A DNA stretch of 64,000 bases from the NCBI RefSeq assembly GCF_027359675.1, contig NZ_CP114786.1, forward strand, positions 4,376,501 to 4,440,500, in the 5' to 3' direction. Numbering within the stretch: the first letter of the stretch is position 1; the number at the start of each line of letters is the position of its first letter. Shown one piece after another: positions 50,108-55,333 of this stretch. This DNA comes from Roseibium sp. Sym1 (GTDB lineage Bacteria > Pseudomonadota > Alphaproteobacteria > Rhizobiales > Stappiaceae). Position numbers and translations under genes: made by a program. The notes beneath the pieces are model-generated. The model was given only the letters and a program-made list of their open reading frames with translations, had not been told where the DNA came from and searched no databases.

Positions 50108-50279
50108 TACCGCCGGAACGGCTTGTACCCTTTGCCAGGGGATCGAAGGGTGGGGAGGGCCGAATTCCTGGTGTTGTCTTCCGTGTGCGGACCTTACGCC
50201 CGATGCTCCAGTGCGCGGGGTGAGAGGATTTTCGGAGCGCGGCCGTGCATTTGTTGCTCATGAGAGCTTTCCGCCGGCG

Positions 50280-53018
50280 TCAGCTCAAGCCTGGAAATCC
50301 CGGGCGAGCTTCCGGAACTGCCGCAAGGCGGGCGAGGAAATGGCAGACACCGCCGCTGCCGCACATGAGGTCGGCCGTCGCGTGAGGGGCGTCGTCGACC
50401 TGCCACACACGGCTGTCTTCGCCCCGCAGCCGGGAGAGCGCGGCCAGGGTTTCCCCGATCCGAAGCGCCTTGCGCAGATCCTCCTCCCGTTCCAGGATCT
50501 GCCAGGCGCTGAGGTGAATCTCGCCCAGCCCGGTCAGTCCACAGCAAGTGCTGTAGTTGGTCAGACGGACATATTCGCCGAAATGCGAAAGAGCGGCGAT
50601 TGCCTTCTCCTTGAAGTGGTTCTCTCTTGTCGCCTCATAGGCGTCGAGATAGGCCATGGCGATGCCGGGTGAGCCGTGACACCAGCGGAACCAGCGTGTC
50701 TCCTCGTCCGAAGCAATCGGCCAGACAAGCCCGTTGTCACCATTGTGGGCGGCCAACCGATCGAGCCAGGCAAAACCGCGTCTCCAGGCAGCGTTGACCG
50801 CTGCATCCGGACAGCGGTGGTCGTAGCGTACCAGAAACGCCAGGATACCGGCGACACCATGCGCAAAGCCGGTGTATTGCTTGCCCGTCATGCCGGGTAC
50901 GCCATCGGGCATATCCCACCCTCCGTCCTCCCGCTGCGCGTCCAGGAGGTATTGCGCGGCCCTGCGCAAAGAAGGACGGAAATCAATGACCGGACCAGCA
51001 ACCGCCTCGCAGGCAAGCGCCGCCAACCCTTGGCCCGCGGCGCCATGAGTGAGGTCGGGCCAATCCAAAGGCCCGCTCAAGGCTTCCTCCAGATATCCGC
51101 TGAACCAGGCCCCCCCCGAGACCAAGCCTGAATTGACTGCATGGGAGATCGCGAGTGCCACGCCCGCTTCACCGAAGTAAAGTCCGGGAAGCTGGTCGTC
51201 GCGGGTCCTGTAGTGCGCCAACAGCCAGTCGATCGCCCGCACCAGCATGTCGCGCCGGGAAGGGGTCAGCCAGGACGGGTCGGCGAATTTCGCGCAGACA
51301 TAGACCGGGCCGGCCACGCCGCGGTAAAGGCTGCGCAAATTGCCAAGTTGGCCGCCATTCTGGTGTTGGGCACGGCCGTCCCGCCTCGGTTTTTCGTCGA
51401 GATGCGACAACCACAGTCCTGTTTCGTCTGACCGGGGAACCGCTTCGAACAGACCGTGAAAGGCCTGCGTCAGGAAGTCCCGCCGTGGCGCCCTCGCGAC
51501 CTCGGAACGGACGGCTTTCCCTGGAGCGGAAAGGGACTGTGCCTCTGATTCGAGGAAAGCCTTCAGGTCTGAAAGCGCCGGACGATCGCCGGGTCGCTCG
51601 GCCCAGCAATCCGCAATCAGCCTGCAGAGCTCCGGTCGCGCCGGCACAAGCTTCCGCAGCCTCCGCTCCAGGTCCGCGGCATCGTCCGCAACCAGATACT
51701 GGGGATCCACGTTGCCGAGGGACCAGATCAGCAGACTGCCGATCGAATAGACATCGTCCGCCGGATCGGGTCGCTCGTTCCTGAGCTGCTGCGGCGAGAC
51801 AAACCCAGGCGTGCCCTGGGTGAACGGCACCCCCTCGTCGCCAGGGCTCCAGGACAACTCGAAATCGAGAAGCGCAATCGTCCCGGAGGAAGTGATGCGC
51901 ACGTTGCGAGGGGTCAGGTCGCGATGCACGATACCCTGGGCATGCAGGTCGGCAACCGCTTCGCACAAGCGCGCGAAAAAAAGCAGGCGGTCGCGTTTTT
52001 CCTCATCGCTCCAGACATTGCAGGGATAGGTGCCGAAAGTGGTCTCAAAATCGTAACCCTCCACGAAATCCATCGGCAGATAGCCGTGGCCCTTGTCTGT
52101 TTCGAAATAGTCGTCAACCGTGGGCACAGACTTGAGGTCGCGCACCGCGTTCTGGACCTTCCATTGGTGTTTCAGCCGGTCACGCATGTCGCGCCCGTTC
52201 GGGTCGGAGGACGTATGTTTCCGGCCTTCCTTGACGATGCAGTATCGAACCGCCTCCTGCCTGCGCAGGTCGAGCGCCAGGAAGATGGAGCCCTTGGCGT
52301 TGACACGAAGCACATTGAGCAACAGGTAGCCGGGACCGAGTAATTCCGAGCCTCCGGAAAGGGAAAGTTCATCGGTTCCTGTGTCCGGCACCAGGCCGGA
52401 GAACGGGTGCTCAAGGCCTTCTGGAACGCGATAGGGTGCCTCATACTGATCCGTTCGGAGCGATCCGTCAGGAAACCGGATCTGTTCCACGATCTGGCCG
52501 AGCCGGTTGCGTGTCATGATCGGATTGTAGCTGCCGAAGCGGGAATGGACCGTACCGCCCAGTGCAAGGTCCGTTATCACTTCAGGTCCGCGAAGGCCTG
52601 CTGTCAGCGGCACGAGTTCCGCCGCAAGCGCCGCCGCACGGTCGTCGTTCTCCGGATAAATTGTAACCGCCTTGCCGACCTGCGTTTCGCCGAATCCCGC
52701 CTCGTTCAAGGTCCGCAGAAGGGAGGGGGTCGCGATGAACTTGAAGGCGGTGTTGCCGCGCGCAAGGAGCGGAAACAGCAGCCTGAACAGCTTCGGTCCG
52801 TCCTGGGGGGTGACGGAAACATGCAGTTTCCATCCCTGCGACCCCACAGCCCTGCCGCAACTCGCCCAAATACCCCGACGAGACCATGTCAGACCGGCTT
52901 CCTCGGCAAGGGCGGTGTAGGCGTCCTCATCATCCGCGCGAAAGAATCCGTCCGGATCGGAAGCCTTCTCCAGGCCGGGCGCAGGTTCGGACTCAAACGG
53001 CGGCGTCAGCTCGGTCAT
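50280..53018 (-). CDS. Class III/IV-type lanthipeptide synthetase (lyase-kinase-LanC)
   Basis: A 912-residue three-domain enzyme. Residues 1-200 are the phosphoSer/Thr lyase domain (GWKLHVSVTPQDGPKLF at 62, FKFIATPSLLRTLN at 93, GKAVTIYPEN at 115, HSRFGSYNPI at 158). Residues 230-490 are the kinase (Lys263 in YCIVKEG, HRDLTPRN at 365, DFE at 385 as in LanKC). Residues 555-905 are LanC-like (THGAAGQGL 657, GFAHGVAGI 717, RWCHGSPGIAMAYL 778, STCCGLTG 823). Cys780, Cys825 and Cys826 can bind zinc; the usual CHG third ligand is Cys here. It should phosphorylate and dehydrate Ser/Thr of a precursor and close lanthionine rings in the cytosol. The likely substrate is encoded 167 bases upstream. No clear ribosome site precedes the ATG. 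Confidence 0.92.
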   Translation of the reverse strand: MTELTPPFESEPAPGLEKASDPDGFFRADDEDAYTALAEEAGLTWSRRGIWASCGRAVGSQGWKLHVSVTPQDGPKLFRLLFPLLARGNTAFKFIATPSLLRTLNEAGFGETQVGKAVTIYPENDDRAAALAAELVPLTAGLRGPEVITDLALGGTVHSRFGSYNPIMTRNRLGQIVEQIRFPDGSLRTDQYEAPYRVPEGLEHPFSGLVPDTGTDELSLSGGSELLGPGYLLLNVLRVNAKGSIFLALDLRRQEAVRYCIVKEGRKHTSSDPNGRDMRDRLKHQWKVQNAVRDLKSVPTVDDYFETDKGHGYLPMDFVEGYDFETTFGTYPCNVWSDEEKRDRLLFFARLCEAVADLHAQGIVHRDLTPRNVRITSSGTIALLDFELSWSPGDEGVPFTQGTPGFVSPQQLRNERPDPADDVYSIGSLLIWSLGNVDPQYLVADDAADLERRLRKLVPARPELCRLIADCWAERPGDRPALSDLKAFLESEAQSLSAPGKAVRSEVARAPRRDFLTQAFHGLFEAVPRSDETGLWLSHLDEKPRRDGRAQHQNGGQLGNLRSLYRGVAGPVYVCAKFADPSWLTPSRRDMLVRAIDWLLAHYRTRDDQLPGLYFGEAGVALAISHAVNSGLVSGGAWFSGYLEEALSGPLDWPDLTHGAAGQGLAALACEAVAGPVIDFRPSLRRAAQYLLDAQREDGGWDMPDGVPGMTGKQYTGFAHGVAGILAFLVRYDHRCPDAAVNAAWRRGFAWLDRLAAHNGDNGLVWPIASDEETRWFRWCHGSPGIAMAYLDAYEATRENHFKEKAIAALSHFGEYVRLTNYSTCCGLTGLGEIHLSAWQILEREEDLRKALRIGETLAALSRLRGEDSRVWQVDDAPHATADLMCGSGGVCHFLARLAAVPEARPGFPGLS

Positions 53019-53185
53019 TGCAGGAATTGTGCGGCGGTACGAGAGGGTAACCGGTCCACGGTGCCATCGGGTGTGTCTCCGGATGTGGCCATTCGGTCGA
53101 ACGGAAGGTTCTTGCAGGCCGGTTCGGCAGCGGCTTTATACCTTCCTCGTCCGGCACAGCGACGGTGCTCTTCCCGAGACACGGA

Positions 53186-53845
53186 TCAATCGGGAAATTT
53201 CGGCGCGGGTGCCGGAATGAGTTCCGGCGGGTCGATGTCGCGCGTCCTGGGCAGAAAACTCACGTAGGGCGCAAGGCCCGATCCCTTCAACATGTGTTTG
53301 ATCGACTCGAAGGCGGGTTCGCCGACATCGACGATGAATGGCCTTGTCATGTCACAGGATTCGCCGGAGCAAGTGTTTCCGCAGGTGTCGGTCCCACAAG
53401 TGTAGTTGCAGCTTTCGCCGCTGCAGGTTTCGTTGCAGGATTCCCTTGCGCATGTCGAGCTGCAGCTTTCTCCGGAACAGGTTGCGTTGCCGCCATAACA
53501 GGAAGTGTCACACGTTATTTTGCAGGTGTCGCCCGAGCAGGTGCCGTGGCAGCTTCCGTCGCAGGTGCTGTCGCAGCTCTCCGACGTACAGGTCGTGCCG
53601 CAGGTGCTGCCGAGACAGGTGTTTTTCGTGCAGGCTTCGATGGATCCCGATATGTCGCCCAAAGAACGCCCGGTCAGGACACCCAGTACATCTTCCGGCG
53701 ACAGTGCGCGAAACCGTTTTTCTTCCCGCTTCTTGAGGCCCTGAAATTCCGATAACGCTGCGTCAGTGTCAAATACCAGCCGGTGAAAGAACTGGGGGTC
53801 TGATCGTGCCCGTTCAATTAATTCAACATAAATATTATTTTGCAT
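53186..53845 (-). CDS. Candidate lanthipeptide precursor with NHLP-like leader and Cys-rich repeat core
   Basis: Start at the ATG at 53845, with ACAGG five bases upstream. The 219-residue product has three parts. Residues 1-70: a leader-like helix region, ELIERARSDPQFFHRLVFD then DAALSEF, close to the NHLP (nitrile-hydratase-like leader) consensus. Residues 72-164: 21 cysteines, 20 of which directly follow Ser or Thr, in alternating 3/4-residue spacing; an 18-residue unit beginning CSGESC recurs at 123, 141 and 159. Residues 165-219: a Cys-free, Pro-rich tail. No signal peptide. It is transcribed just before the lanthipeptide synthetase, which makes it the obvious substrate; this is inference. 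A structural disulfide ladder is the alternative. A promoter candidate lies at 53883-53911. Confidence 0.8.
   Translation of the reverse strand: MQNNIYVELIERARSDPQFFHRLVFDTDAALSEFQGLKKREEKRFRALSPEDVLGVLTGRSLGDISGSIEACTKNTCLGSTCGTTCTSESCDSTCDGSCHGTCSGDTCKITCDTSCYGGNATCSGESCSSTCARESCNETCSGESCNYTCGTDTCGNTCSGESCDMTRPFIVDVGEPAFESIKHMLKGSGLAPYVSFLPRTRDIDPPELIPAPAPKFPD
53354..53632 (-). repeat. Cysteine-rich tandem repeat segment of the precursor
   Basis: Residues 72-164 of the precursor. Two 54-base units (53426-53479 and 53372-53425) encode 18-residue repeats starting CSGESC, and a partial third begins at 53371. Earlier, more diverged units (CSGDTC at residue 103, CTSESC at 86) follow the same C-x3-[ST]-C-x2-[ST] plan of nine residues. 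Confidence 0.85.
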
Positions 53846-53882
53846 GATACCTGTCCAAATTGAAAGGTAAGAATACGTTAAT

Positions 53883-53911
53883 AAAGTAGCCGGAAAAGCT
53901 CGGATAGTCAA
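53883..53911 (-). promoter_or_regulatory. Candidate promoter of the lanthipeptide locus
   Basis: On the minus strand TTGACT (53906-53911) and TACTTT (53883-53888) are 17 bases apart, about 40 bases before the precursor ATG in an AT-rich stretch. The -10 match is weak. Confidence 0.4.
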
Positions 53912-54176
53912 TTCTGGGTGGTGCTGTAAACAATTCCCTTTTCGGTTGCGGCTGCTGCCTCGTGAAGACGTAAGCCGGCGGCAAAACCTCGGGTGCAGGC
54001 GAACGAAACGGTCGCGCGCGTGTCCGAAAATCTGTCATTCCAGGTGGAGATCCCTGCTGGAACAGGGATGTTTTGAAGGCCGCTGCAAAAGGCGTGACAC
54101 GAAGCGCGCACAATCGCCCTTTTTTACAAGTCCGGAACATGATCGGCGGCCGCCCGGTTTCACGGTGTCGGTCCCG

Positions 54177-54301: not shown

Positions 54302-54916
54302 TTAGTTGGACACGCTGCTGACCGTCGTCACACGGGTGTCCGAAATGCCCGTCCATTGCACGGGCGAACGCGCGGACTGGCGCTTGATGTAGCGGTAAGG
54401 CGTCGAATACCAGGGCAGCACGGCCTCGATCTGGTTGTCGAGGATCATGTCGCCATGATCGGTGCGCACCGTCAGTACGGCATGGCCCGAGTTCTGAAGG
54501 TCCTTGGCAACCGTGATCAGCAGCGCACTTTTGGGCCAGCCGGCCTCGATCAGGACGCGCTGCTTCTCCAGAACGTATTCCTCGCAGTCACCGTAACCGT
54601 CGACCGGATAGGTCCAGAATTCCTCCTGGCCGAACAGGTCGGCATCTGTCATCGGACGTATCCTGCGGTTCACGTCCTTGTTGATGGCGATCAGTTCGTT
54701 CCATCGTTCTTCGTCCAGGCGGACGACAACCGGATCATAGCGTTCCCTGGGACAGGCCCAGTTGTTGTCGCGGCAAAACTGGACATATCCCACCGGCGCC
54801 TTCACGTCGGTGCGCATGATCATGAAACGGCCGGGATCCGCCTGCACAGATGTGCCGCAAACGACGGAGCTCAAAGCCAGGATTGATGCCAGTAAAGTAG
54901 ACTTAAGTAATTTCAT
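54302..54916 (-). CDS. BTLCP (transglutaminase-like cysteine peptidase) family protein
   Basis: Start at the ATG at 54916 (GGGGAGG upstream). The 204-residue protein has a signal peptide (MKLLKSTLLASILALSSVVC, cleaved near VQADPG). The catalytic triad of the family is visible: Cys111 in GYGDCEEYVLEK, His145 in NSGHAVLTVRT and Asp160 in MILDNQ. This family (DUF920) includes LapG, a periplasmic protease controlled by c-di-GMP, but most members are uncharacterised. It lies upstream of the lanthipeptide precursor on the same strand, but a terminator intervenes, so shared function is only a possibility. Confidence 0.9.
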   Translation of the reverse strand: MKLLKSTLLASILALSSVVCGTSVQADPGRFMIMRTDVKAPVGYVQFCRDNNWACPRERYDPVVVRLDEERWNELIAINKDVNRRIRPMTDADLFGQEEFWTYPVDGYGDCEEYVLEKQRVLIEAGWPKSALLITVAKDLQNSGHAVLTVRTDHGDMILDNQIEAVLPWYSTPYRYIKRQSARSPVQWTGISDTRVTTVSSVSN

Positions 54917-55333
54917 CGTCACGCCCTCCCCAAGGCTGACGTAACGATGACTCAATGCCTTTTACTTCGAGAAAATCTTCAAAGTAAAACTGTATGTTTA
55001 TTTGATTTTTATTTTAGGATAATTTGATTTATGTTTGAGTTTTATTTGAATAGAATTTGCCGAAAATTTTCCTAAAATTGAATCGATCCTCTGCAAGTTA
55101 TTGAAAAACGGTCGGGTTGCCGGGAGGCGCCGGTCATCATGCGTGCCTGCCAGGCAGGCCATGGCAGGTGCGCAGAAGCGTCGTGGCGTCTCTTTCAGGC
55201 TGGCTGAGGACTGAAAAAAAGTTGAAAAACTGAGGTCAGGGCGCAGTGATAGCCTGAATTTTGCAAGAAAAAACCGTCCTGATGCTCATGGAGCAGGACG
55301 GTTGCATGTCGTTGTCGGCGAGGCGCGCGTGGT
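54917..55333. other. AT-rich intergenic region between BTLCP and PilZ genes
   Basis: A 417-base gap. Positions 54957-55080 are unusually AT-rich for this genome and should hold the BTLCP promoter. The terminator of the PilZ gene occupies 55266-55303. I see no gene; a 66-codon minus-strand frame has no support. Confidence 0.5.
55266..55303 (-). terminator. Rho-independent terminator of the PilZ gene
   Basis: On the minus strand AACCGTCCTG (plus 55294-55303) pairs with CAGGACGGTT (plus 55272-55281) across a 12-base loop, followed by a T run (plus-strand AAGAAAAAA). Confidence 0.85.

Follow-up and report, generated by a model that had tools for sequence, protein, structure and literature searches.

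What does a lanthipeptide synthetase make of a protein that is one-tenth cysteine? The question is raised by two genes in a 64,000-nucleotide stretch of Roseibium sp. Sym1 (contig NZ_CP114786.1, positions 4,376,501 to 4,440,500; hereafter the window, in whose coordinates all features are given). A sequence-only reading of the window had described a 219-residue protein with 21 cysteines beside an intact 912-residue lyase-kinase-LanC synthetase, and both open reading frames (ORFs), with their domains, were found where it had placed them. The precursor (substrate) gene, translated from its ATG, occupies 53186..53845 on the minus strand, and the synthetase gene follows on the same strand at 50280..53018, with an intergenic gap of 167 bp and both frames uninterrupted. 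We consider it very probable that the two genes make up a self-contained lanthipeptide cassette, belonging to a separate class IV-like subfamily, in which each cysteine would most likely close onto a downstream Ser/Thr.

Pairing of the precursor with the synthetase is conserved. In a protein search that scored only the 7998 candidates sharing most words with the synthetase, 62 relatives were found at E ≤1e-30 and 27 (P0003 to P0029) at E ≤8.2e-134, the closest being P0003 at 56% identity. A 28-sequence synthetase alignment, from which P0030 (a 509-residue fragment) was excluded, then yielded 63 genome loci. Of these, 34 were selected as nearest or nonactinobacterial and inspected for Cys-rich ORFs; in many, such ORFs with a common DPxFFHxLVF-type leader were found directly upstream of the synthetase. 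A hidden Markov model (HMM) of this leader, seeded with 14 sequences from 11 loci and excluding the window, was scanned against 12,834 stop-to-stop ORFs of at least 40 residues from the 63 loci and the window. It gave 40 matches at E ≤10, of which 39 lay immediately 5' of a synthetase in the same orientation, the window precursor among them (E 4.9e-17); the remaining match (E 0.011), located elsewhere, was taken as chance. Counted by locus, 25 of 30 in-clade loci have the match, as does the window, and none of 32 others does (22 that the tree places outside the clade and 10 more distant or partial loci absent from the tree); L066, a LanC-only fragment, was excluded, and a few contigs are short upstream. 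The sequence-only reading had proposed co-occurrence across genomes as a check, and this check is passed, with the qualification that 11 of the 25 loci seeded the HMM and that several of the 14 out-of-sample loci, to which the window is added, are congeners of seeds. The in-clade set comprises 28 loci in the tree and 2 (L045 and L047) assigned by 38 to 40% identity because their synthetase frames are interrupted; these interruptions, either assembly errors or pseudogenes, kept both out of the tree.

Genome-wide searches with a 15-member precursor profile (A2) agreed with this distribution. The profile matched 26 of 30 in-clade genomes, with the match in the L039 genome being weak (E 5.5e-6) and confined to the Cys part. 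Among 23 control genomes, to which 25 of the 32 outside loci led, it matched 2, again weakly (E 7.2e-6 and 4.0e-5) and without extending beyond the Cys part. In the window's own genome, a genome-wide search with the precursor profile found a single precursor, at this locus. The pairing in the window exceeds chance, since its precursor was recovered by an HMM built without it and the pairing recurs in other genomes. Extra precursor-like matches far from the synthetase were seen in two Legionella-group genomes (G065:C1:1468101-1468514 and G082:C54:238349-238711).

The synthetase has the LanL architecture, with an N-terminal OspF-like lyase, a central kinase, and a C-terminal LanC domain. The RamC_N phospho-lyase domain (residues 39 to 206; 52401..52904, minus strand; E 1.3e-34) carries K64, H66, and Y121, retained in 49, 49, and 54 of 56 in-clade rows, respectively. 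By motif and a constant offset, rather than by direct alignment with VenL, these residues stand at the positions of the VenL lyase residues K51, H53, and Y108, given in the available part of the VenL study (PMC2843593); the counterpart of the VenL base R83 lies near K93, a placement that is uncertain. The Ser/Thr kinase domain (residues ~224 to 494; 51537..52349, minus strand; E 3.6e-15) contains K263, HRD at 365 to 367, N372, and D385. The LanC cyclase domain (LANC_like, residues 563 to 899; 50322..51332, minus strand; E 1e-28), the only part covered by the LanM model, contains D655, H720, and the predicted zinc ligands C780, C825, and C826. This CCC triad is shared with P0003, P0010, and L039, while CCH is found in 46 of 56 in-clade rows.

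Judged by these features, the synthetase is class IV-like and not class III, so that of the two classes first suggested only one stands. Class III (LanKC) was rejected on the predicted zinc triad and on a LanKC score of 284.9 bits against a cut-off of 575, and a ProcM-like class II assignment was rejected on the RamC_N and kinase domains in place of a LanM-type dehydratase. The nearest full-length fold in a structure comparison was CuvL, the curvocidin synthetase, which we take to be class IV. Compared with the class IV enzymes VenL, SgbL, and CuvL, however, the window synthetase and its relatives form a separate clade in the tree (Shimodaira-Hasegawa-like approximate likelihood ratio test, 100), and the LanL equivalog score (NF038150) is 485.1 bits against a cut-off of 650. 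Because that cut-off is not reached, we file the synthetase as a class IV-like sister subfamily and do not name it LanL.

The precursor is divided into three parts, with all 21 cysteines lying within residues 72 to 164. Its Cys-free leader (residues 1 to 71; 53633..53845, minus strand) is predicted by AlphaFold2 with high confidence to be helical over about residues 1 to 60 (block-mean predicted local distance difference test scores of 80 to 96 for residues 1 to 50 and 79 for residues 51 to 60), while the unmodified core is not confidently predicted. Profile and fold comparisons hint at a distant relationship between the leader and the nitrile hydratase-like leader peptide (NHLP)/Os1348 type, probably within one clan. 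Among 15 family members, 9 match NH_RiPP_Os17 (NF038399; best E 4.3e-5) and 6 match TIGR03793 (best E 3.1e-4), and Os1348 ranked first, albeit weakly (E 0.78), in the fold comparison. The window precursor itself scores below the curated NF038399 cut-off (E 0.19; 11.8 bits against 40). Many precursors carry the precomputed Pfam annotation PF27846. In agreement with the sequence-only reading, no signal peptide is visible by eye in the window precursor. A cyanobacterial precursor (L029:7257-7736) has, also by eye, a signal-peptide-like hydrophobic stretch ahead of the leader, which suggests export in that lineage. At L037:5891-7366, the first precursor is preceded in frame by a long low-complexity stretch of LQVLVALQ-like repeats, some bases of which are unresolved. 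The tail of the window precursor (residues 168 to 219; 53189..53344, minus strand) is free of cysteine and ends in Asp. Across the 114 precursors described below, the C-terminal residue is Arg in 88, often after an FSRFxR-like motif that could be a sorting or processing signal.

The core (residues 72 to 167; 53345..53632, minus strand) holds 21 Cys, 16 Ser, and 19 Thr in 96 residues, and each of its 21 cysteines opens a tandem C-x2/3-[ST]-type unit (one being C-x5-T). Ten of the 20 Cys spacings are of 4 residues, nine of 5, and one of 7, with 4 and 5 alternating in the second half; the C-x3-[ST]-C-x2-[ST] repeat originally described is the window's own variant, while the family-wide unit is C-x2-[ST]. 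The register of this unit was examined in 114 precursors, comprising the 15 A2 members and 99 proteins (P0065 to P0163; E ≤5.4e-19) that lay above a wide score gap in a precursor profile search (152 proteins at E ≤10, of which 120 were listed); sequences were clustered at 90% identity, and some of the 99 may be duplicates of A2 members. In the 142 Cys blocks of these precursors, Ser/Thr immediately precedes the next Cys in all 1103 gaps of three residues and in 38 of the 39 gaps of four. Furthermore, 140 of the 142 blocks have Ser/Thr three positions beyond their last Cys (+3), and only 9 have it just ahead of the first (-1), against a flank background of 10%. Counting distinct end or start sequences once gave 49/51 at +3 and 9/105 at -1, and 25 representatives at 50% identity gave 29/30 and 2/30. 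Cys is therefore the opening residue of the unit and Ser/Thr its closing one. Such a register does not follow trivially from a Cys repeat, since the 21 weaker Cys-repeat matches listed below the score gap, which are not shown to be radical S-adenosylmethionine (SAM) targets, have the opposite register (5/22 at +3 and 15/22 at -1); the leader was absent from the five of these that were read.

The simplest chemistry suggested by this register is a bond from Cys(i) to dehydroalanine or dehydrobutyrine at i+3, and an array of rings with N-terminal Cys is, on these counts, strongly indicated. In most characterized lanthionines, Cys lies C-terminal to the dehydroamino acid. The family could also be a lanthipeptide system of the conventional direction, with each dehydrated residue attacked by a more C-terminal Cys ([ST]-C-x-x-[ST]-C, i to i+5), and inside the repeat both pairings are possible. 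At the block edges, however, the conventional direction would leave the first Cys without a partner and the near-invariant Ser/Thr after the last Cys unexplained, and we regard it as unlikely.

Under our preferred reading, the synthetase would bind the helical leader, its kinase would phosphorylate Ser/Thr in the disordered core, and its lyase would eliminate phosphate to give dehydroalanine and dehydrobutyrine. The LanC domain, with its predicted zinc triad, would then add Cys thiols to the dehydrated residues, each Cys most likely closing on a residue 3 to 4 positions downstream to give up to 21 small rings. We would guess that general host enzymes process the product, a rigid thioether-array peptide, and that it is secreted. 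Alternatively, the synthetase may only dehydrate or phosphorylate, leaving most cysteines as thiols, disulfides, or metal ligands in a metal- or thiol-buffering protein. The very high Cys density and a cassette without transporter or protease would suit such a protein, as would the loss of the zinc triad in some in-clade enzymes (L041, L043, L048, L076, and P0025). Nevertheless, every one of the 22 loci (window included) whose precursor has at least 5 Cys retains an intact triad, as do 3 of 7 loci without such a precursor; the four triad-less loci have no Cys-rich precursor, and the Ser/Thr partner positions are as conserved as the cysteines. We therefore think this alternative very unlikely. 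The triad-less enzymes of L041, L043, L048, and L076 belong to Paenibacillus and Bacteroidota and may have turned to dehydration only. The Chitinophaga synthetase at L049 retains the triad, yet no precursor was seen there.

Comparison with other genomes of the genus indicates how the pair arrived. DNA searches with the right flank gave matches in 26 of 26 genus genomes searched (the window's own included). In 10 of 11 same-genus loci, the left flank (to ~50111) and the right flank (from ~54173) are separated by only 13 to 146 bp; at the remaining locus, L129, the comparison did not extend to the left flank. Since the flanks abut in relatives, the ~4.06-kb segment between them (50112..54172, no strand assigned), which by our reading contains nothing but the two genes, is most simply explained as gained here by a clean insertion. 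That the Cys-rich protein is no substrate but an unrelated structural protein beside a LanL-like enzyme by chance is hardly credible, for although the pair occurs once in the genus genomes searched and sizes and tails differ among relatives, adjacency is conserved across lineages and both genes lie within one inserted segment.

Several observations, in addition to the shortfall in LanL score, weigh against the cassette as we read it. The first concern rarity: no full-length synthetase relative was found in 36 other genomes of the genus or 24 of the order, where the enzyme search returned kinase-domain matches and one short N-terminal match, and among 398 genomes of the phylum the enzyme was found at E 1e-60 only in the window's genome. 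In 385 genomes of the class, the sole clear precursor match was the window's own; six others gave weak matches (E 6.4e-6 to 5.2e-4), of which one (G389) extends into the leader and contains two stops. In addition, the window precursor, used alone as a query, brought up no relative. Five in-clade loci (L039, L043, L048, L049, and L076) lack a leader match, and precursors at L021, L029, and L041 bear the leader with only 2 to 4 Cys, so multi-ring cores are not the only ones that follow this leader. At the Myxococcales locus L039, which apart from the window is the only three-Cys locus where a precursor can be seen, the Cys-rich precursor (281 residues, 30 Cys) has a different leader and fits the register less well, with units of 4 to 7 residues alternating near the end and looser elsewhere, and with Ser/Thr at +3 in one of two blocks and T at +4 in the other. 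Finally, with 35 Ser/Thr available to 21 Cys in the window core, more than one choice of rings is possible, and the precursor relatives are not statistically independent. We see about an even chance that the fuller picture holds, namely, a widespread, mobile, two-gene class IV-like family with arrays of 5 to at least 21 four- or five-residue rings, all with Cys N-terminal to the dehydroamino acid, which would be among the largest lanthipeptides and of a new ring architecture, without a dedicated transporter or protease.

With respect to neighboring genes, the original statement that no transporter or protease is adjacent applies to the inserted segment, whose ORF list, by our reading, includes neither; a Peptidase_C93 gene (54302-54955) does adjoin the cassette, as part of the flank also present in cassette-free same-genus genomes. 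In other loci, neighbors (ORFs of at least 90 residues in 21 lineage groups) were clustered by BLASTP and not annotated. All 21 groups had the synthetase and 10 had the precursor, and a cluster named by eye as an ATP-binding cassette (ABC)-type ATPase was found in 5, at scattered positions and on both strands. The sole case just downstream of the synthetase, on a Chloroflexi contig (L046:9788-10810, also by eye), is possibly part of an exporter in that lineage. Related oxidoreductase-like ORFs lie directly 3' of the synthetase in three lineages (L024:10693-11604, L031:6377-7402, and L045:10251-11210); by eye, we take them to be luciferase-type flavin oxidoreductases, and they are possibly tailoring enzymes.

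Surveys of class IV systems may have passed over this family. According to the available parts of these sources, Walker 2020 discarded candidate precursors longer than 120 residues and assigned the majority of LanKC and LanL to Actinobacteria and Firmicutes (PMC7268733), a 2024 survey reported precursors of 29 to 100 residues (PMC11251773), and a 2025 review placed class IV lanthipeptides only in Actinobacteria and Firmicutes (PMC12328550). Limits of 100 to 120 residues would miss longer precursors, and the Cys-rich precursors in the sets examined here span 100 to 281 residues, with tandem C-x-x-[ST] arrays. The long helical leader, probably of the same clan, resembles those of NHLP/Nif11-LanM systems and proteusins; NHLP leaders have been linked to LanM partners (Haft 2010, PMC2887384) and, in dehydrazoles, are joined to Cys/Ser/Thr-rich cores with a LanM-type enzyme and YcaO (PMC10676384), as far as the available text of both papers goes. 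In contrast to NHLP/Nif11-LanM systems, the enzyme here is LanL-like, the window's leader scores under the curated NF038399 cut-off, and no transporter recurs beside the pair, the ABC-type ATPase cluster aside. The three-Cys triad recalls the CCG motif of ProcM-like class II synthetases (PMC12328550, available part), whereas the dehydratase architecture differs and each locus here has one or two long substrates. The four-residue Cys repeat is also like the Cys-Xaa-Xaa-Xaa targets of radical SAM enzymes (TIGR04117 and TIGR04114), with 6 of 15 members matching TIGR04117. That assignment was rejected: no radical SAM gene was found among ten window neighbors scanned with Pfam (one of them without a family), and none recurs in other loci as far as the clustering of unannotated neighbors shows. 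We found no description of this precursor-synthetase family within the literature collection searched, and the cassette is probably undescribed.

The system is not the alphaproteobacterial one that the sequence-only reading had proposed; what stands is a two-gene system, well supported by co-occurrence, whose multiple thioether rings we infer. Among the isolates that carry Cys-rich arrays are seven Legionella-group species, five Massilia, and Hyunsoonleella; the source names of precursor profile matches add Paraburkholderia and Sphingomonas. Metagenome-assembled genomes, in which binning errors are possible, add Chloroflexota, Eiseniibacteriota, Bacillota, Microbacteriaceae, and others. In Neobacillus, Paenibacillus, and cyanobacterium PCC 7702, the leader is found in ORFs with only 2 to 4 Cys. 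If our reading is correct, the range of class IV-type lanthipeptides would grow to include Proteobacteria, Bacteroidota, and further lineages, and the case would show how an entire family can be hidden by the length cut-offs of mining tools. Moreover, the enzyme may install some 20 small rings in strict register, which would be useful for questions of processivity and for stiff thioether peptides, and the register statistic makes the direction of the rings directly testable by mass spectrometry.

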